In this document: positions 10,359 through 45,078 of the stretch, in pieces | Numbering within the stretch: position 1 is the first letter of the stretch | How the letters are laid out: each line of letters opens with the position of its first letter | IMG/VR virus record: IMGVR_UViG_3300033146_006838 | Span: 1 to 45,180 of that record | DNA length: 45,180 bases | Source of the DNA: a virus | Direction: 5' to 3' (one strand) | The notes under the pieces: generated by a model | The model's database searches: none | What the model was told of the DNA's origin: nothing | Seen by the model: the letters and a program-made list of their open reading frames with translations, nothing else | Translations under genes and position numbers: made by a program

Positions 10359-10367
10359 ATTATTGAT

Positions 10368-10781
10368 TTTTGTCAAAAATACAACATAAACAACAATATC
10401 TAAGCATTTTATAAAGGAAGTTATTAACATTATGAAAAAGTCTAATATGTGTCATTATTTATTAGACTTGCAAAAAAGGGTATATTATGGGAGTAAACTT
10501 TTTGGAAATCTCCGGTTTTTGTCATAATGGATTTTTCGGGGTTTAAAACTCTGTGTATCAGGATGCCCAACTTTGACAAAAACGTTTTCAGTTTTGTCAT
10601 AAAGTTTGGCAAAGTTTGGCAAAATGATATTTGAGAGGAAATATCGGAGCAGAAATATTTTTATGACAAAAAACAAATACTGTTTTGTCAGCAAAAAACT
10701 ATGTTTGTCAAAGTTTTGTCAAAATCGTAAAACATTGTTATTGAGTTGATAGCAAAAGAGTTTTATATTATTATGACAAAA
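10368..10781. promoter_or_regulatory. Cluster of TTTTGTCA/TGACAAAA motifs (operator array or origin candidate)
   Basis: This noncoding stretch holds nine copies of TTTTGTCA or its complement: 10368, 10517, 10574, 10592, 10664, 10683, 10704 (TTTGTCA only), 10714 and 10774. It also has a tandem TTTGGCAAAG/TTTGGCAAAA at 10604-10623. Copies occur in both orientations. Such iteron-like density in a 547-base gene-free region suggests a multi-site operator or a replication origin. A 69-codon minus-strand frame across it has low-complexity content and is not called. Confidence 0.55.
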
Positions 10782-10856
10782 ATACAAAAATATTGAAACT
10801 ATTAAGTAGTAATAATATAAGTCTAATAAGAATTACACACTTATTAAGCATTAAAA

Positions 10857-11154: not shown

Positions 11155-11185
11155 AAGAGTGTGTCATTTAACTCTGTGGGAGCAT

Positions 11186-11312
11186 AAAAAAAGCGGTGCT
11201 TCCACTTTCCGCTGACACACTCCTGCCAAAGGCATAAAGATACGCAAAGTTTCCACACCGCCTATATTTTGGACAGTTTGGGTTATATACCTTTGATTAT
11301 ACAGAAATGTGT
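11186..11312 (-). ncRNA. C4-like antisense leader RNA, copy C
   Basis: The order on the minus strand is as follows. A TACCTTTG -7 box (11318-11325), then arm 1 TGACACA (11308-11314). Arm 2 GCGGTG follows at 11256-11261, then the small hairpin TGCC-TTT-GGCA. Arm 1' GAGTGTGTCA is at 11213-11222, and arm 2' CACCGC (11193-11198) leads into seven T. After the T run comes arm 1'' TGACACACTC (11157-11166), just before the ATG. Arm 1' can pair with arm 1 or, over ten bases, with arm 1''. The 71-base core is close to the size of the P1 C4 RNA. No -33 box is evident. Confidence 0.65.
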
Positions 11313-11345
11313 CAATACAAAGGTATGAAAAATATTTTAATTATG

Positions 11346-11906
11346 TTAAGAGTGATTTATATTTTCTTCTTTATAAAATTTTTGAGACCATAAATCATAT
11401 TGCCCTGTAACAATATCTTTATCTAAGCTGTTCAATGAACGAGTGGTTTTTTTCTTCAAATTTTTTAGCTCCTGTATTCGTTTAAATTCTTTTGATTTAC
11501 TTAAATTTTCCTCCAACTGTTCTATCTCAATATCCGATTGAGTTTTAATTTTTAGTAACTTTTCACGTTGTGTTATTGTACCTTTGAAATATTCATATAA
11601 AATTTGATATACTTCCCACTTATATTTCGCTAATTTCTCTGATTCAGACTTAATCTGAAATATCCAACCATAAATAAAAAATTCAGGCAAACATGACCAA
11701 TTCCGAGACTGATCATTTCCTACCTGCATTTGCTGTATAGCAAATGCAGGTGCTAATATACTATCTGATTTTATATTTTGAAATTGTCGGTTATAGTTTA
11801 CTTCAAGTGCTTCGCAAATAGGTTTTATTGCAATCCAATAAGTTCCGTCTTTGGAAAGAAAATAAATTGATTTTCCGTTAAATTCTAAAAATTTTTTGGT
11901 GTCCAT
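11346..11906 (-). CDS. Antirepressor, P22_AR_N type (copy 1 of 3)
   Basis: The N-terminal domain (WIAIKPICEALEVNYNRQF, then KYKWEVYQILYEYF) has the P22_AR_N pattern of phage antirepressors. A basic-aromatic strand is followed by I-K-P-I-C-E-x-L and later a Y-x-x-x-x-Y-x-x-L-Y helix. Such proteins bind the prophage repressor and release it. A coiled coil follows (KIKTQSDIEIEQLEENLSKS), then a tail LDKDIVTGQYDLW nearly matching the tail of the ORF6N-like protein at 34708-35238. It lies downstream of a truncated BRO-N gene. Confidence 0.7.
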   Translation of the reverse strand: MDTKKFLEFNGKSIYFLSKDGTYWIAIKPICEALEVNYNRQFQNIKSDSILAPAFAIQQMQVGNDQSRNWSCLPEFFIYGWIFQIKSESEKLAKYKWEVYQILYEYFKGTITQREKLLKIKTQSDIEIEQLEENLSKSKEFKRIQELKNLKKKTTRSLNSLDKDIVTGQYDLWSQKFYKEENINHS

Positions 11907-11934
11907 AATTATTTATTTTTTGTTGTGATTTATA

Positions 11935-12132
11935 TTAACAATTTCTTTTCTGACCTGATGCCCCTATTTGGTGCATCAGGTATTCATCATCATCTAAAAT
12001 TTTAACGGCTTTTTCAGCTTTCGCATAACCCAAAATATCGCTAATATCTTTTGCTACTATTAACGGATTCCCGTTTTCATCTGACAGAACTCTAAGTTCT
12101 TGTTTCTCGAATTTAAAAATTTCTTGTTTCAT
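11935..12132 (-). pseudogene. Truncated BRO-N domain protein
   Basis: The 65 residues match the start of a BRO-N domain: an N-terminal strand, VAKDISDILGYAKAEKAVKI, then DEYLMHQIGASGQKRN. The sequence stops there with Cys and TAA, where intact BRO-N proteins continue into the I-N-E-S-G-L-Y core. No downstream continuation in any frame was seen before the next gene. It is probably a remnant left by recombination, although the shortened peptide may still be made. The leader (CACTTAAAAAATCAATAATT just before ATG) is identical to that of the KilA-N gene at 12806, so it may have retained expression signals. Confidence 0.6.
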
Positions 12133-12239
12133 AATTATTGATTTTTTAAGTGTTTGATATTCTTTAGTTAAAAAGTAAAGCTTTGATAATTAGCCGAATA
12201 ATGCTTTTTGAAAAATTACAGTTAAATAAACTTTTTTTT

Positions 12240-12806
12240 TTACTTAAATAAATCTCTCATAAGATTAAGTTGTTGGGCATTTTCTGAACGGTTTAAATAA
12301 CCGTCTTTCTTATTTTCTTTTTCAAGTTTTTGATATTCTTTAAAATCTGAATTATCAATTAAGTTCATTTCAAGTTCAGCAAGCCGGTTCATTCGCTTTG
12401 CCTTATTCTCTAATCTTTGCTTTTGTTCGGCAAAGTGTCCAAAAATTAATTTTTCAATTGTCATATATATCCAAACTTCAAAATGCGGATTTAGCCATGC
12501 TGCAAATTTAAGTGATAGGCTTCTGTGCATAAATGTACCTGCATGACCTTTTGTTTGAATAATATCTTCTCTTTTTATTTCCTCTGAATTTACCCTTTTT
12601 GGGGTAAATTCAGATTTTTTATTTCCGCCATTTAGTGTAAATAAAAGTGCATCAATAAATGATTTTGTGTTGTCAGTTCTCAAAAAACGGTCTATCCTTT
12701 TGTCAAAAATTTTTGCCATTTGCGTAGCATTAACTTTTACGTCTCTGTCTCCGTTTAATTGAAACTCTATTTTGTGTTCGTTAAATTCATAAGTTATTGT
12801 GTCCAT
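12240..12806 (-). CDS. KilA-N domain protein (antirepressor-type)
   Basis: The KilA-N fold is clear. VNATQMAKIFDKRIDRFLRT opens the domain. Later the segments HAGTFMHRSLSLKFAAWLNP and HFEVWIYMTIEKLIFG give the G-T-F-M-H-x-x-L-x-x-x-F-A-A-W motif. KilA-N proteins bind DNA and are common as phage regulators and antirepressors. The C-terminal half is a coiled coil ending QLNLMRDLFK, a DLF-type ending like those of other antirepressors here. At 188 residues it is a full-length small member. It lies in the accessory region between integron-like cassettes and P22_AR_N genes. Confidence 0.75.
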   Translation of the reverse strand: MDTITYEFNEHKIEFQLNGDRDVKVNATQMAKIFDKRIDRFLRTDNTKSFIDALLFTLNGGNKKSEFTPKRVNSEEIKREDIIQTKGHAGTFMHRSLSLKFAAWLNPHFEVWIYMTIEKLIFGHFAEQKQRLENKAKRMNRLAELEMNLIDNSDFKEYQKLEKENKKDGYLNRSENAQQLNLMRDLFK

Positions 12807-34649: not shown

Positions 34650-34651
34650 TG

Positions 34652-34683
34652 AAAAAAGCGTAGTTTTTTTACTACGCTTTTTT
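34652..34683 (-). terminator. Terminator after ORF6N-like gene
   Basis: AAAAAAGCGTAG and CTACGCTTTTTT make a twelve-base-pair stem; on the minus strand it is followed by T residues. It separates the regulatory cassette from the tail genes. Confidence 0.8.
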
Positions 34684-34707
34684 TACGGGAAAGTATTATT
34701 TAAAATT

Positions 34708-35238
34708 CTAATTATCAAATAAATCGAATTGAGCATTAACAATATTTTTATCCATTTCTTTGAGTTCTTTGCCTGTACGCATTACAGCTGCTTTTGCTTT
34801 CATAAGCTGCAAATAATCATCGTTCTCAATCAAGCGTTTTTCCATGTCTCTGTAAAGTTTTTGACTGTTTGTTTTTTCTTTCAAAATTTCACTGCGAAAT
34901 AAGACATTTCCGGTAACTGTGTTGAAAAGCGTATCTTCTGCCCAGTTGCGAAATATTCGTGCATTTTCGCTTTTTATTAAAAAACCGAGTCGCATTACTC
35001 CTCGCAATGTCCAAAAAATATTAGGTGCACTTCCTGATTTGCCGTCAGGATTCCTGACGACAAAATGTTTGTTTTCGACAAATTCTTTTGAGTTTGTCGA
35101 TTTGTGTTCGCGGACATTTTGCGGACTTACTTCATATCCTTTTGCAACTTGTTTTCCTGTAATTAAAAAAACATGAACAGGATGCGGATTCGCTAAGATT
35201 GTAAAATCGTCTGTAATTTGAACTAATTCTTTTTCCAT
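34708..35238 (-). CDS. ORF6N/Rha-like antirepressor
   Basis: The N-terminal half (KGYEVSPQNVREHKSTNSKE then NIFWTLRGVMRLGFLIKSEN) follows the ORF6N or Rha-type regulator pattern, with a W-T-x-x-G-V-x-R-L-G segment and A-R-I-F-R-N-W-A-E-D after it. The C-terminal coiled coil ends MDKNIVNAQFDLFDN. That ending nearly equals the tail of the P22_AR_N protein at 11346 (LDKDIVTGQYDLW), though their N-terminal domains differ. It has its own host-type promoter and terminator and lies directly before the tail genes. A transcription-regulator or antirepressor role is likely. Confidence 0.6.
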   Translation of the reverse strand: MEKELVQITDDFTILANPHPVHVFLITGKQVAKGYEVSPQNVREHKSTNSKEFVENKHFVVRNPDGKSGSAPNIFWTLRGVMRLGFLIKSENARIFRNWAEDTLFNTVTGNVLFRSEILKEKTNSQKLYRDMEKRLIENDDYLQLMKAKAAVMRTGKELKEMDKNIVNAQFDLFDN

Positions 35239-35289
35239 TTTAGTGTAATTTAAAGGGTAAACAAATATTTTTTTAAGTAATTAATTATG

Positions 35290-35317
35290 CAAATATACTA
35301 TTTATTATTTAAACAAA
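35290..35317 (-). promoter_or_regulatory. Host-type promoter of the ORF6N-like gene
   Basis: Minus strand: TTTG (35314-35317), 16 bases, TATATTTG (35290-35297), followed by the ORF6N-like start at 35238. The -7 box is perfect, but spacing is shorter than the usual 19-21. The 44248-44275 copy is identical in layout. Confidence 0.5.
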
Positions 35318-35341
35318 AAATAGTCGGCTTGTGTTTGCAAC

Positions 35342-35375
35342 AAAAACACGAATAAAATTCGATATTCGTGTTTTT
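35342..35375 (-). terminator. Terminator of cassette B
   Basis: AAAAACACGAAT and ATTCGTGTTTTT form a twelve-base-pair stem with a ten-base loop; T residues follow on both strands. It ends the transcript of the 35391-35669 gene. Confidence 0.75.
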
Positions 35376-35390
35376 GTGTGCCTGAATTGA

Positions 35391-35669
35391 TTATTTTTGC
35401 TCTACAATGGAAGTATCGTTTATTAAATCTTTGAACTCGTAAAGAGTTGTAAAAAAATTAATCTGTTCCCATTTATTATTAAGGGTATCCGGTTCTACAA
35501 TTAAATTAAGATTTGCAAAACGAATAGTTTTTTCAATACTGTGAGCCATTGACGGCAGTCCGTCAAAATGCGAATTGCTCTCGAAAATTAGATTAAAAAA
35601 AGGGCGAACGTTTACGAAATGTCCTGTTTCGGGGTGTTGAACCAATACCGGTTTTTGTCTATTTTGCAT
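35391..35669 (-). CDS. Cassette protein, 92 aa (paralog of 44349 gene)
   Basis: It shares almost its whole sequence with the 44349-44627 gene (both QKPVLVQHPETGHFVNVRPF...). Few substitutions separate them. No family is recognised; the sequence is mixed alpha/beta with HPETGHF and RPFFNLIF segments. It is the last gene of the cassette, coupled to the upstream 85-residue gene by a GAGGAGGCAAACCATG junction. Association with an antirepressor suggests a partner in the lytic switch, which is inference. Confidence 0.6.
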   Translation of the reverse strand: MQNRQKPVLVQHPETGHFVNVRPFFNLIFESNSHFDGLPSMAHSIEKTIRFANLNLIVEPDTLNNKWEQINFFTTLYEFKDLINDTSIVEQK

Positions 35670-35916
35670 GGTTTGCCTCCTCTTCTTTCAGCATTTTTAT
35701 TAATACGGCTTCAGACATTCTGCCTTTTGCAAAACAGGCATGATAAAGAGTAACCGAATAAGGCAGCTTCCCGTATTCAGGGCAAATAATTGAAACAGGG
35801 TCTTCGTTTGTTTCAAAGGAGTGTTCAAATACTTCGGAAATAAAATCTTCGAGATTGTTACATGCTAAGGTTTTAGTTTCCGTTTTGTAAATAATTTGAT
35901 ATTGTTTAGTTTGCAT
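35659..35916 (-). CDS. Cassette protein, 85 aa (paralog of 44617 gene)
   Basis: Almost identical over its length to the 91-residue gene at 44617 (YQIIYKTETKTLACNNLEDF versus YQIVYPTETKTLVCKNLENF). The segment CPEYGKLPYSVTLYHACFAK is conserved in both. Its C-terminus, KEEEANHAK, is also the C-terminus of the upstream antirepressor (KEEEANHAN). The preceding start is reached through an AGGAGG-containing junction. Function unknown. Confidence 0.6.
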   Translation of the reverse strand: MQTKQYQIIYKTETKTLACNNLEDFISEVFEHSFETNEDPVSIICPEYGKLPYSVTLYHACFAKGRMSEAVLIKMLKEEEANHAK

Positions 35917-36475
35917 GGTTTGCCTCCTCTTCTTTTGCTTCCAAATCGGTTATGAGTGCTGTGTTATCAATTTTCCAATCATCGAAAGATACTGCACGCA
36001 CTTGGTTAAGGTCTTTTTTTGAAACTGAAAGCCTGTCTTTAGCTGTTTTGAACTGTTTTTGGATTATTTGATAATTGTCTAAACGGGCAGAAATTGCGTC
36101 TTGTTTTTGCTCAAGAAAACTACTGTGCTCGATGAAGTGGCGATACAGGGCGTTGTAACATTCAAGTTGATACTTGAGAACTGCCTCTGCTGCTTCCGGT
36201 TTTACTTTGCGGGCATCAATTGAAAATAACCAACCGAATACAAACTTGTATGGAATAGTTACCATTTCTCTGTCTTTTCCGTCGGCTCCAACTGTGACCA
36301 TGATGGTCATAGTTGAACTTAAAATCGGATGTTCTTTTATTTTCCGGATTTGAACTTCATGTGAAACTCCGAGAGCTTCGCAAATTGGTTTTACGGCAAT
36401 ACGTTTTTCGCCGTCGTGGATTAGCACAATATCAACCTCGTTGATTCGTGCTACTGTTTTTGAATTTTTAATCAT
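35906..36475 (-). CDS. Antirepressor, P22_AR_N type (copy 2 of 3)
   Basis: The start at 36475 (MIKNSKTVARINEVDIVLIH) is chosen because a longer frame reads through the leader RNA. The AVKPICEALGVSHEVQIRKI segment and later KFVFGWLFSIDARKVKPEAA match the P22_AR_N pattern seen in its paralog at 43651. A coiled coil follows. It is preceded by a C4-like leader whose arm lies against this start codon, the situation of the P1 antirepressor. It ends in a shared EEEANHAN junction with the 85-residue gene. Confidence 0.7.
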   Translation of the reverse strand: MIKNSKTVARINEVDIVLIHDGEKRIAVKPICEALGVSHEVQIRKIKEHPILSSTMTIMVTVGADGKDREMVTIPYKFVFGWLFSIDARKVKPEAAEAVLKYQLECYNALYRHFIEHSSFLEQKQDAISARLDNYQIIQKQFKTAKDRLSVSKKDLNQVRAVSFDDWKIDNTALITDLEAKEEEANHAN

Positions 36476-36502
36476 AACTCTTTTGACATTTATGTGATTA
36501 AT

Positions 36503-36653
36503 AAAAAAAGCGTTGAGTTTGGCTGTCAAAAGAGTAGTTCGAGAACTAATACTTAACCAAAAACAACGCCCATATTTTTAGAAAAATATTGACTTGTTAA
36601 AAATAAAAAATCCGTAACATTTATAGTAGTACGGATAGTTACTACTCTTTTGA
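36503..36653 (-). ncRNA. C4-like antisense leader RNA, copy B
   Basis: Minus-strand order: TATATTTG (36659-36666), arm 1 TGTCAAAAGAGTAGT (36641-36655), a hairpin ATCCGTA/TACGGAT with T6, then arm 2 GCGTTGTTTTTGG (36557-36569). A small GTTC-TC-GAAC hairpin follows, then arm 1' ACTACTCTTTTGACA (36524-36538), and arm 2' CCAAACTCAACGC (36510-36522) leading to T7. Arm 1'' TGTCAAAAGAGT (36477-36488) is next to the ATG. Arm 1 and 1' pair over 15 bases; 1' and 1'' over 12. The core is 60 bases. Confidence 0.75.
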
Positions 36654-36658
36654 CATTG

Positions 36659-36689
36659 CAAATATAATTCAAAAATATTAGAATCCAAA
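36659..36689 (-). promoter_or_regulatory. Host-type promoter of leader B
   Basis: TTTG (36686-36689), 19 bases, TATATTTG (36659-36666). Both boxes are perfect. Arm 1 of the C4-like leader begins four bases downstream, at or next to the expected start point. Confidence 0.75.
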
Positions 36690-37362: not shown

Positions 37363-37626
37363 TTATTTGTCTTGATAATGATATTTACAAGAAGTAATAA
37401 TAATTTGTTTATCTTTTATTTCATAAATTAAACGGTCTTTATCATTAATTCTTCTCGACCATTGGTTGCTCAGATTATTTTTAAGATGCTCAGGTTTTCC
37501 GAGTCCTTCAAAGGGAGTTCTTGCAGTGTTTTCTATAAGTTTATTAATCTTTTTAAAAGTTTTTTTATTTTCTAACCAAGCAATATACTCTTTCCACGCT
37601 TTCGGTGTAAATGTAATTTGTTTCAT
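37363..37626 (-). CDS. YoeB-family toxin
   Basis: The 87-residue protein has the YoeB/Txe features: a start MKQITFTPKAWKEYIAWLEN, then GKPEHLK, RRINDKDRLIYEI and TSCKYHY. The residues at E46, R65, H83 and Y84 correspond exactly to the catalytic positions known for E. coli YoeB, a ribosome-dependent mRNA nuclease. It is downstream of and overlapped by its proposed antitoxin by four bases. A toxin within the connector/tail region of a phage is unusual; it could stabilise the prophage or block competing phages. Confidence 0.85.
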   Translation of the reverse strand: MKQITFTPKAWKEYIAWLENKKTFKKINKLIENTARTPFEGLGKPEHLKNNLSNQWSRRINDKDRLIYEIKDKQIIITSCKYHYQDK

Positions 37627-38126
37627 TTATTCAAGTGTAATGGAATTTCATCGACAGAGTTGAATGAGATAAGCTCTCCGTTTTCGATTTGACTGATAGA
37701 TTTTAACAGATGCGACCTGTTTGGTTCAGTAAGTAGTAATTCAGTTGTATCTTCGCCCGTGTCAATACAATCGGCTTGTATTTCTAATTCAAGTATTTTG
37801 TCTTCAATTAAATCAATATACTCATCTAAAAATTTATAAGCTTTTTGCATTTGAGCGTTATCAGTTTTGGTTTGTCGTTTTTTGAATGATTTAAGGAGTT
37901 CTAAAGCGGGGTTTATCCATTCTAATGTTTTTATTGCTTCTTCAGGCTCAAAATATCCTATGTCTGTATTGCTTAATGTTTTTATCGCCTTTTTAATTTT
38001 TTTTGTAAATAGTCTGACTGTCAACCAATGACGTATGAAAATAATTTCGGCATTAAAGTTAAGCAATTCACTTATTGTACTGAAAACTGAACGCTCTATA
38101 TTGTAATTATATGTTAAGGCAAACAT
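37623..38126 (-). CDS. Proposed antitoxin, unusually long
   Basis: I chose the start at 38126 (MFALTYNYNIERSVFSTISE), where the CACTTAAAA leader precedes the ATG; an upstream start adds a hydrophobic extension. The last 35 residues (EPNRSHLLKSISQIENGELI then DEIPLHLNK) match the toxin-binding tail of YefM/Phd-type antitoxins. The first 130 residues are a helical domain I do not recognise, in place of the usual 50-residue DNA-binding part. The protein is about twice the normal length. It overlaps the toxin gene by four bases. Confidence 0.65.
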   Translation of the reverse strand: MFALTYNYNIERSVFSTISELLNFNAEIIFIRHWLTVRLFTKKIKKAIKTLSNTDIGYFEPEEAIKTLEWINPALELLKSFKKRQTKTDNAQMQKAYKFLDEYIDLIEDKILELEIQADCIDTGEDTTELLLTEPNRSHLLKSISQIENGELISFNSVDEIPLHLNK

Positions 38127-38157
38127 GATTAAATGTTTTAAGTGTTGTAATATAACG

Positions 38158-38191
38158 CAAAGATACAACAAATATTTGAGTTTTGTAAGAC
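38158..38191 (-). promoter_or_regulatory. Toxin-antitoxin promoter with GTCTTACAA motif
   Basis: TATCTTTG (38158-38165) is a perfect -7 box followed 32 bases later by the antitoxin ATG. No TTTG is found at the -33 place; instead GTCTTACAA (38183-38191) is there, the motif also found at the early promoter. A regulator binding it would cover the -33 region. Confidence 0.5.
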
Positions 38192-43650: not shown

Positions 43651-44217
43651 CTAATTTTCCTTTTCAAAATCAGCATCTTTAAACAAATCTCCCTGCATAT
43701 CATCTGCCTGCCACTCTTCAAAAGAATAATGAGTTATATCTTTCAATTTTTTTCTTCCGTCTGCAAGTGCGTTTTTAGCATCATTAAAATTCTTCCTGAT
43801 ATCGTCAAGTTTCTCTTGCTGTTTTTCCATTGCTGTTTGTTTTTCCTGAAGGAATTTACTTTGTGAAGTAAAATGATCATACAAGGCTTTATAACATTCA
43901 ATACGATATTTACTGACAGACTCCTTTGCTTCTTCTTTTACGTTTTTTGGGTTAATTGTAAACAACCAACCAAAGACGTACATGTACGGTATTGTTGTCA
44001 TTTTATACTCTTTTCCGTCTCGTCCAGTTACGGTGCTGAGCACCGCAACTGATTTTAGAATTTCATCATTATTTATTTTCTGTCTTTGAGAACTTTCATT
44101 AATTCCGAGAATCTCACAAATAGGTTTTATCGGCACATACTTTTCGCCGTTTTTTATCATCATTGTAATAGATACTTCATTAATTTTTGCTACTGTTTTT
44201 AAATTTTTAGATTTCAT
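43651..44217 (-). CDS. Antirepressor, P22_AR_N type (copy 3 of 3)
   Basis: Its first half (MKSKNLKTVAKINEVSITMM then VPIKPICEILGINESSQRQK, later PYMYVFGWLFTINPKNVKEE) aligns by eye with the 35906 and 11346 proteins, and carries the conserved K-P-I-C-E-x-L core. A coiled coil follows. The C-terminal region (HYSFEEWQADDMQGDLFKDA) resembles the Q-x-D-L-F ending of the other antirepressors. It has a host-type promoter and terminator of its own. A role in prophage induction, by sequestering the repressor, is inferred from the family. Confidence 0.7.
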   Translation of the reverse strand: MKSKNLKTVAKINEVSITMMIKNGEKYVPIKPICEILGINESSQRQKINNDEILKSVAVLSTVTGRDGKEYKMTTIPYMYVFGWLFTINPKNVKEEAKESVSKYRIECYKALYDHFTSQSKFLQEKQTAMEKQQEKLDDIRKNFNDAKNALADGRKKLKDITHYSFEEWQADDMQGDLFKDADFEKEN

Positions 44218-44247
44218 AATATTGATTTTTTAAAGTGAATAATTATG

Positions 44248-44275
44248 CAAATATACTATTTATTATTTAAACAAA
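44248..44275 (-). promoter_or_regulatory. Host-type promoter of the P22_AR_N gene (copy 3)
   Basis: TTTG (44272-44275), 16 bases, TATATTTG (44248-44255), then the ATG at 44217. The -7 box is perfect; the spacer is short, as in the copy at 35290. Confidence 0.5.
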
Positions 44276-44299
44276 AAATAGTCGGCTTATGTTTGCGAC

Positions 44300-44333
44300 A
44301 AAAACACGAATAAAACTGAATATTCGTGTTTTT
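44300..44333 (-). terminator. Terminator of cassette A
   Basis: AAAAACACGAAT and ATTCGTGTTTTT, the same stem as at 35342-35375. It ends the 44349-44627 transcript. Confidence 0.75.
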
Positions 44334-44348
44334 GTGTGCTGTAATTGA

Positions 44349-44627
44349 TTATTTTCGCTCTATAATAGAAGTCTCGTTTATTAAATCTTTGAATTCGTAC
44401 AGAGTTGTAAAGAAATTAATCTGTTCCCATTTACTTTCAAGAGTATCCGGTTCTACTATTAAATTAAGATTTGCAAAACGGATAGTTTTTTCAATACTGT
44501 AAGCCATTGACGGCAGTCCGTCAAGATGCGAGTTGCTCTCAAAAATTAAATTAAAAAAAGGGCGAACGTTTACGAAGTGTCCTGTTTCGGGGTGTTGAAC
44601 CAATACCGGTTTTTGTTTAGTTTTCAT
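44349..44627 (-). CDS. Cassette protein, 92 aa (paralog of 35391 gene)
   Basis: Nearly identical to the 35391 gene, with substitutions spread along the protein (FDGLPSMAHSI versus LDGLPSMAYSI). The AGGAGG junction precedes its start as in copy B. Conservation between the two copies suggests a real function. None is assigned. Confidence 0.6.
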   Translation of the reverse strand: MKTKQKPVLVQHPETGHFVNVRPFFNLIFESNSHLDGLPSMAYSIEKTIRFANLNLIVEPDTLESKWEQINFFTTLYEFKDLINETSIIERK

Positions 44628-44892
44628 GGTTTGCCTCCTTTTCTTTAAGCATTTTTATTAATACGGCTTCTGATATTCTGCCTTTTGCAAAACAGGCATG
44701 ATAAAGAGTAACAGAATAAGGCAACTTACCGTATTCCGGACAAATAATTGAAACAGGGTCTTCGTCTCTTTCAAAGGAGTTTTCAAATACTTCGGAAATA
44801 AAATTTTCGAGATTCTTACAGACTAAGGTTTTAGTCTCCGTTGGGTAAACAATTTGATATTGTTTACGTTCTTTTTTCGTTTGTTGTAGCAT
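44617..44892 (-). CDS. Cassette protein, 91 aa, first gene under leader A
   Basis: The first codons (ATG CTA CAA CAA ACG) are themselves the third copy of the leader arm, GCTACAACAAACG. Pairing with the leader would hide this start. The rest is homologous to the 85-residue gene at 35659. Its C-terminus (KEKEANHEN) leads into the AGGAGG junction with the next gene. Function unknown. As the first target of the C4-like leader it occupies the place of icd in P1. Confidence 0.6.
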   Translation of the reverse strand: MLQQTKKERKQYQIVYPTETKTLVCKNLENFISEVFENSFERDEDPVSIICPEYGKLPYSVTLYHACFAKGRISEAVLIKMLKEKEANHEN

Positions 44893-44915
44893 TTTAATAA
44901 AAATTAGGAATTAAT

Positions 44916-45041
44916 AAAAAAGAGAGGGGGTCGCTACAACAAACGATTTATTTACCAAAGGTAAGAAATCTCCCCTCTCAATATTTTGATTTTCTTATTT
45001 TTCTATAAATTAATTTTTAGTAAATATTACGTTTATTGTAG
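44916..45041 (-). ncRNA. C4-like antisense leader RNA, copy A
   Basis: Minus-strand order: arm 1 GCTACAATAAACG (45030-45042) just after the TATATTTG box, then arm 2 GAGAGGGG (44972-44979). Hairpin TTACC-TTT-GGTAA (44952-44964) follows, then arm 1' CGTTTGTTGTAGC (44933-44945), arm 2' CCCCTCTC (44922-44929) and T6. Arm 1'' GCTACAACAAACG (44878-44890) covers the first codons. Arm 1' pairs perfectly with 1'' (13 bases) and with arm 1 through one G-U pair. The core is 58 bases. Confidence 0.75.
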
Positions 45042-45046
45042 CACTG

Positions 45047-45078
45047 CAAATATACGACAAAAAAAATAAGCCTGCAAA
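45047..45078 (-). promoter_or_regulatory. Host-type promoter of leader A
   Basis: TTTG (45075-45078), 20 bases, TATATTTG (45047-45054). Both boxes and the spacer are consensus. The TTTG lies inside a stretch shared with the terminator at 37318. The rest of the window to 45180 holds no gene I can see. Confidence 0.75.

Follow-up and report, generated by a model that had tools for sequence, protein, structure and literature searches.

A three-arm leader before an antirepressor gene

At 36.6 kb on the minus strand of IMG/VR virus record IMGVR_UViG_3300033146_006838 (45,180 bases, analysed as a whole and here called the window), a putative RNA leader lies upstream of a gene for a P22_AR_N antirepressor. 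The downstream protein had been named as such in an earlier note on this DNA, and the assignment is borne out by Pfam (E=1.8e-29) and by PHROG 'anti-repressor Ant' (E=1e-34). The leader (Table 1) opens with a box of the Bacteroidetes TAnnTTTG type, which is the predicted promoter. There follow a first arm (arm1) at the predicted transcription start, an early hairpin with a run of six T's (T6), a spacer, the 5' half of an intrinsic terminator, a second arm (arm2) in the terminator loop, the 3' half with a run of seven T's (T7), and a target copy (arm2') at a start codon. Arm1 and arm2 are perfect complements, as the earlier note had it (15 nucleotides [nt], 100%, spacing 102 nt). The third copy it saw beside the antirepressor ATG is also real: arm2' (36488-36477) is a 12-nt copy of arm1 and is 100% complementary to arm2 over 12 nt. 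It adjoins the antirepressor ATG and contains the ATG of a five-codon open reading frame (ORF), MSKEL*, the stop of which shares the sequence ATGA with the antirepressor start. One such 12-nt triple within 260 nt occurs in the real sequence and none in 30 Markov shuffles of the window; chance is excluded as the origin of the arrangement.

The terminator is missed by a simple terminator scan because its loop is long. The earlier note had taken arm2 and arm2' themselves to form the terminator. This is not the case. The two arms are separated by T7, the terminator is formed by another stem, which encloses arm2, and arm2:arm2' makes a start-codon hairpin. The pseudoknot-like arrangement proposed there between arm1 and an arm2:arm2' terminator falls with it; what survives is a relation of arm1:arm2 pairing to the stem around arm2. 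The TAnnTTTG box alone is not commoner than chance in the window. Across relatives arm1 follows this box at a near-fixed spacing, and that spacing is the only informative part of the promoter-box evidence. A search of the rest of the window for another target of arm2 gave only sites with three mismatches, at chance level.

Two further leaders in the window, at 45.0 kb and at 11.3 kb and likewise on the minus strand, share this anatomy but have other arms. At the arm2' of the 11.3 kb leader a mini-ORF, MTHSYE*, overlaps the ATG of an 82-residue ORF (11154-10906). Calculated energies are -16.6 to -26.2 kcal/mol for cognate arms and -3 to -12.5 kcal/mol for arms of different leaders, values by which the three leaders do not cross-pair. 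Neither of the two further leaders has an early hairpin comparable to that at 36.6 kb, in keeping with the earlier note, but the element is not peculiar to this leader: a hairpin followed by at least five T's was found in 18 of the 34 leaders of the set described below, by a loose scan run without a control.

In all three window leaders the minimum-free-energy fold pairs arm1 with arm2, and in those at 36.6 and 45.0 kb this fold abolishes the terminator. When arm1 is held unpaired, as if bound by another RNA, the terminator forms in the predicted fold; in a longer transcript, arm1 being again unpaired, arm2 is predicted to pair with arm2' over the start codon. The mean duplex energies of arm1:arm2 and arm2:arm2' in 21 leaders (-22.3 and -22.9 kcal/mol, respectively) are nearly equal, as expected of a switch.

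Relatives of the leader and the pairing of their arms

Direct DNA or protein look-ups in viral contigs with the window's own genes gave no relative. An alignment of antirepressors supplied 19 genome loci and 52 virus loci, and in many of these a scan for box, arm1, arm2 and arm2' recovered the anatomy, with arms of other sequence. The best shuffled control scored 23.8 and the better real matches 24 to 40; of these better matches, L073 (L and G numbers are our own handles) comes from another record of Leef_1 (L003), and a few lack a start codon at arm2'. When arms, terminator and ORF were asked for together in whole records (1.4 Mb), there were 11 matches, against none in five shuffles. As judged by these sequence features, the three-arm anatomy recurs in dozens of Bacteroidota phages and prophages, Polaribacter phage Leef_1 being an isolated phage that carries it, with its leader at 24.5 kb of NC_062750. 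A wide genome search with model R1 found it in 8 of 344 Bacteroidales and 1 of 296 genomes in the wider phylum, counts that are no estimate of prevalence and are low because the model describes a single scaffold subtype and was run behind a strict prefilter. The window's own arms were found in no other viral contig, so no second phage of this putative immunity type was found among them.

In a set of 34 leaders, the pairing regions were delimited by landmarks, and each arm was tested against the arms of all others. Arm1:arm2 energies were -26.8 kcal/mol for cognate and -9.4 for non-cognate pairs, the leader's own arm being the best partner in 34 of 34; for arm2 and its target the values were -24.8 and -11.6 kcal/mol, with the own target best in 30 of 34. 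Because many of these leaders had first been found through their arms, two other tests weigh more. The first was a search with a covariance model of the terminator in which the arms are not treated as paired. It returned new leaders having a downstream gene and three matching arms (L086, L124, a second copy in L130, L159, L160, L162 and L165). It also returned one locus, L143:7751-7836 (minus strand), with arm1 and arm2 and no downstream target copy, which looks like a decayed leader or else a stand-alone trans-acting RNA. The second was a blind set, collected with an exact 18-nt terminator sequence and no use of arms or promoter, which gave 28 virus loci and 24 unique leaders. The cognate arm1 partner was best in 21 of these 24 and the cognate target in 19. 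Three of them (L180, L186 and L195) do not have a leader of this kind and appear to be chance loci; when they are left out the figures are 21/21 and 18/21. (L180 came first in both rows only through its G+C-richness, and the rank of one genuine leader is set by the 21/21 and 18/21 count.) In the genuine leaders of the blind set arm1 stands directly after the TTTG box, though the box was not used in the search.

The arms change together. Genome G036 has two leaders with near-identical scaffolds and downstream genes in which arm1, arm2 and arm2' have all changed, and the paralogous leaders of G030 show the same joint change. At eight arm positions compared in 30 leaders in register, three to six pair types occur at each, and 26 of the 30 octamers are distinct. 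G.U pairs number 31 in arm1:arm2 and 12 in arm2:arm2'. Because of these G.U pairs and the coordinated changes, the sequences show pairing that acts at the RNA level, with selection preserving complementarity while the arm sequence drifts. This much of the earlier note's central claim, a C4-like three-arm RNA leader in a Bacteroidota phage, is upheld. The insulation of paralogues from one another further suggests action in trans. The idea that arm1:arm2 is systematically weaker than arm2:arm2' was dropped, since it has more G.U pairs but the mean energies are equal.

In all 52 leaders having a target, the arm2:target duplex, with limits as drawn by RNAduplex, has a start codon inside it or at its edge, and in nine leaders a mini-ORF of 1-7 codons stands at the target start. 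The genes that follow are of several kinds. The antirepressor is directly downstream in the 36.6 kb leader and in L022. Behind the 45.0 kb leader and in L003, L041, L058, L059, L065 and L066 a small ORF comes first and a P22_AR_N antirepressor next or a little further on. The remaining leaders precede small ORFs with no assigned function, some of which end in a hydrophobic segment (L086, L159, L160 and L162). Most leaders were gathered near P22_AR_N genes; the loci found with the 18-nt terminator were not chosen in this way.

Three side observations concern particular relatives. One phage contig has two leaders, L183 and L184, whose arms are related yet distinct; they add another insulated pair. 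In type-B leaders (L165, L058 and L142 among them) a GCCC-loop-GGGC hairpin is followed by T7 and then AT-GCCC. In the stretch from arm1 to the main terminator this gives two small hairpins that exclude each other, perhaps a second attenuator. In L086, L159, L160 and L162 the proteins directly behind the leaders (77-81 residues) share a hydrophobic C-terminal segment (WYVGAIGALCVTF.FPPAVAAAAYC); they could be type I toxins or superinfection-exclusion proteins. That the leaders themselves belong to type I toxin-antitoxin systems, an idea prompted by the small membrane proteins behind some of them, was set aside because it does not fit the antirepressor cases.

A proposed switch, known systems and rival explanations

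Sequence analysis shows the leader anatomy, pairing at the RNA level, arms that change in concert, specificity for the cognate partner and folds that compete. From these we infer a three-arm autogenous antisense and attenuation switch placed at the start of an antirepressor operon, a proposal we regard as fairly likely. Transcription from the leader promoter would begin at arm1, and in a fresh transcript arm1 would pair with arm2 once arm2 is made; this would break the terminator stem and free arm2' and the start codon, so that the operon is read and translated (ON). Leader RNA bearing arm2, supplied by earlier rounds or by a resident prophage, would act in trans: by occupying arm1 it would let the terminator form, and by pairing with arm2' it would cover the start codon (OFF). 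In the 36.6 kb leader the blocked start would be that of the five-codon ORF, and the antirepressor would be controlled by translational coupling because the mini-ORF stop overlaps its start. The arms would be the specificity determinant, each leader recognising its own sequence and ignoring its paralogues. The antirepressor gene probably helps the phage to leave dormancy, and the switch may have a role in lysis-lysogeny or immunity.

Several points weigh against this proposal. Arm1:arm2 and arm2:arm2' are of similar strength, so the calculated energies cannot fix the default state; the folding excludes pseudoknots, so the terminator and arm1:arm2 might coexist. Several leaders precede small proteins of unknown or membrane type, not antirepressors, and a collection based on P22_AR_N inflates the association between leader and antirepressor. 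Lastly, to go by analogy, a leader RNA of this general kind in Gifsy-1 activates and does not repress.

The best reading by analogy is that the leader works like C4 of P1/P7, CI of P4 and IsrK of Gifsy-1. C4 of P1/P7 (RF01695; c4-a1b1, Weinberg et al. 2010) is likewise the leader of an antirepressor operon. The layout in the P1 record is a1/b1 - C4 - a2/b2 - icd - ant, and the order of upstream copy, antisense and downstream target near the first start is common to P1 and the 36.6 kb leader. In P1, icd and ant1 overlap at ATGA (...TTTATGAAA), as MSKEL* and the antirepressor do here, where coupling is predicted. The earlier note's view that the pairing is the same as in P1/P7 nevertheless goes too far. 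Each site in P1 consists of two split arms of 7-8 nt, whereas here there is one continuous arm (12-15 nt in the 36.6 kb leader, 10-20 nt across leaders); the P1 RNA is compact (77 nt) and processed, whereas here an intrinsic terminator has arm2 in its loop, and the transcript is predicted to start at arm1. The Rfam C4 model, which finds P1 at 68.8 bits as a positive control, has no match in the window at the gathering threshold. With an E-value threshold it has none in 34.5-45.2 kb or in the 36.6 kb leader taken by itself, and 17 relatives likewise gave no match. Because of this and the different arm organisation the leader is not a member of the Rfam C4 family. Searches with Rfam in general found nothing, the sub-threshold miRNA-type matches being chance; c4 RNAs are listed for Proteobacteria and phages.

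In the P4 CI system (seqA-CI-seqC) the antisense segment also has a complementary target on either side of it in the same transcript, and pairing of CI with seqA and seqC leads to premature transcription termination (PMC4825925). The folds predicted here switch as CI-type premature termination would require. The present leader departs from P4 in that its antisense arm is enclosed by an intrinsic terminator and its downstream target is found at a start codon. When P4 was scanned with the same arm criterion, only weak 8-nt candidates came up. In countertranscript attenuation of the pT181 plasmid type, too, an antisense RNA decides between antiterminator and terminator, but that antisense comes from the opposite strand and here the antisense arm would be part of the same leader. 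The sar RNA of P22 pairs with the antirepressor (ant) mRNA and blocks its translation (PMC12197685). It is a separate short RNA, and no three-arm attenuator leader has been described for it.

IsrK of Gifsy-1 provides the main rival explanation, which we think unlikely. IsrK acts in trans on its own mRNA, activating anrP via orf45; it is a leader small RNA ending at a Rho-independent terminator, with a read-through mRNA on which the small ORF overlaps the antirepressor start (PMC4825925). Its pairing partner is inside orf45, and no third arm in a terminator loop has been described. On this model, an arm1-only RNA ended by the early T6 hairpin would capture arm2 in trans, arm2' would be freed, and mini-ORF and antirepressor would be translated. 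The early hairpin and T6 come right after arm1 at 36.6 kb, a hairpin with a T-run is found in the 18 leaders mentioned above, and the orf45 stop and anrP start overlap as AUGA (PMC4825925), exactly as do MSKEL* and the antirepressor. However, many leaders, including those at 45.0 and 11.3 kb, are without a clear early terminator, and the feature conserved throughout is the terminator around arm2.

A purely cis-acting attenuator is an outside possibility. On this view a ligand, a protein or the ribosome would decide whether the arms of a single molecule form the antiterminator or the start-codon hairpin, and no RNA would act in trans. The mutually exclusive folds of a single transcript are what this predicts, but it gives no reason for paralogues in the same genome to diversify their arms on a kept scaffold and leaves strict cognate specificity unexplained. 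Two readings at the DNA level were rejected as explanations of the arms. That the repeats are operators for a phage repressor is highly improbable: arm1 abuts the promoter box, and repeats near promoters are often operators, but one phage has arms of three unrelated sequences next to promoters of a single kind, the arms differ between relatives yet keep pairing through G.U, and arm2 is in the terminator loop and arm2' at the start codon in all targets found. An invertible, phase-variable segment has a negligible probability: arm1/arm2 do form a perfect inverted repeat, of a length used in Bacteroidota promoter inversion, but there are three copies and not two, the promoter is outside the pair, many leaders are imperfect at the DNA level, and the sequences differ between same-genome paralogues, unlike a recombinase site.

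Phages of Proteobacteria are known to control antirepressors through RNA (C4, CI, sar, IsrK). The three-arm switch would bring the same logic, on a different scaffold, to phages of Bacteroidota, including gut Bacteroidales prophages, whose lysis-lysogeny control is little understood. Searches of the open-access literature, with subscription papers and preprints outside their scope, found no description of such leaders in Bacteroidota. We see an even chance that they are undescribed and widespread RNA specificity modules of Bacteroidota phages, in which one attenuator scaffold carries free arm triplets with own-arm recognition, and several orthogonal copies in one phage define RNA immunity groups and govern antirepressors as well as small membrane proteins in gut prophages. 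With arms that vary freely on a conserved scaffold, the leaders would be a natural series of orthogonal RNA switches, and phages with matching arms are predicted to be mutually immune or cross-regulated, others not. The leaders can be found by anatomy alone, which is why sequence-based Rfam models miss them.

Other features of the window

Table 1. Coordinates of the three leaders and associated genes in the window
Feature	Position	Strand	Basis	Remarks
36.6 kb leader, -7 box TATATTTG	36659-36666	minus	sequence	Bacteroidetes TAnnTTTG type; predicted leader promoter
36.6 kb arm1 TGTCAAAAGAGTAGT	36641-36655	minus	sequence	at predicted transcription start
36.6 kb early hairpin ATCCGTA/TACGGAT, then T6	36605-36636	minus	sequence + fold	possible early terminator, giving arm1-only RNA
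36.6 kb intrinsic terminator	36503-36569	minus		stem GCGTTG 36569-36564 / CAACGC 36515-36510; T7 36509-36503; arm2 in loop
36.6 kb arm2 ACTACTCTTTTGACA	36524-36538	minus		antisense arm, directly 5' of the terminator's 3' strand
36.6 kb arm2' TGTCAAAAGAGT	36477-36488	minus		target copy at start codon
Mini-ORF ATG TCA AAA GAG TTA TGA (MSKEL*)	36472-36489	minus		ATG 36489-36487
P22_AR_N antirepressor, 189 residues	35906-36475	minus		ATG 36475-36473
85-residue small protein	35659-35916	minus		downstream in 36.6 kb operon; paralogue of 44617-44892
92-residue small protein	35391-35669	minus		final gene of 36.6 kb operon before a terminator
45.0 kb leader	44877-45054	minus		same anatomy as 36.6 kb leader
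45.0 kb box TATATTTG	45054-45047	minus
45.0 kb arm1 TGCTACAATAAACG	45043-45030	minus
45.0 kb terminator GAGAGGGG / CCCCTCTC	44979-44972 / 44929-44922	minus		followed by T6
45.0 kb arm2 TCGTTTGTTGTAGCG	44946-44932	minus
45.0 kb arm2' TGCTACAACAAACGA	44891-44877	minus		begins at ATG of 91-residue ORF
91-residue small ORF	44617-44892	minus		ATG at arm2' of 45.0 kb leader
P22_AR_N antirepressor	43651-44217			two genes beyond the 91-residue ORF
11.3 kb leader	11155-11325	minus
11.3 kb box TACCTTTG	11325-11318	minus
11.3 kb arm1 TTGACACATTTCTGT	11315-11301	minus
11.3 kb arm2, ending GGAGTGTGTCA	about 11224-11213	minus
11.3 kb arm2' TGACACACTCTT	11166-11155	minus

The regions behind the 36.6 and 45.0 kb leaders are duplicated blocks (34650-36475 and 43651-44892). 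They share paralogous small ORFs, identical hairpin terminator arms (35340-35377 and 44298-44335) and a near-identical promoter region (TAGTATATTTGCATAATT); their P22_AR_N antirepressors are placed in a different order. In all, the window encodes three P22_AR_N proteins, a KilA-N protein and a RhuM/Bro-N/ORF6N-like protein (11346-12806, 34708-36475 and 43651-44217). A YoeB-family toxin gene is present at 37363-37626 (Pfam E=4.7e-32); no partner antitoxin was identified there, and a 182-residue ORF (37623-38171) overlaps the start of the toxin gene. It is also of note that a TTTTGTCA / TGACAAAA motif occurs in at least eight copies, in both orientations, within about 420 bases (10366-10790), an array that looks like one of operators or iterons.
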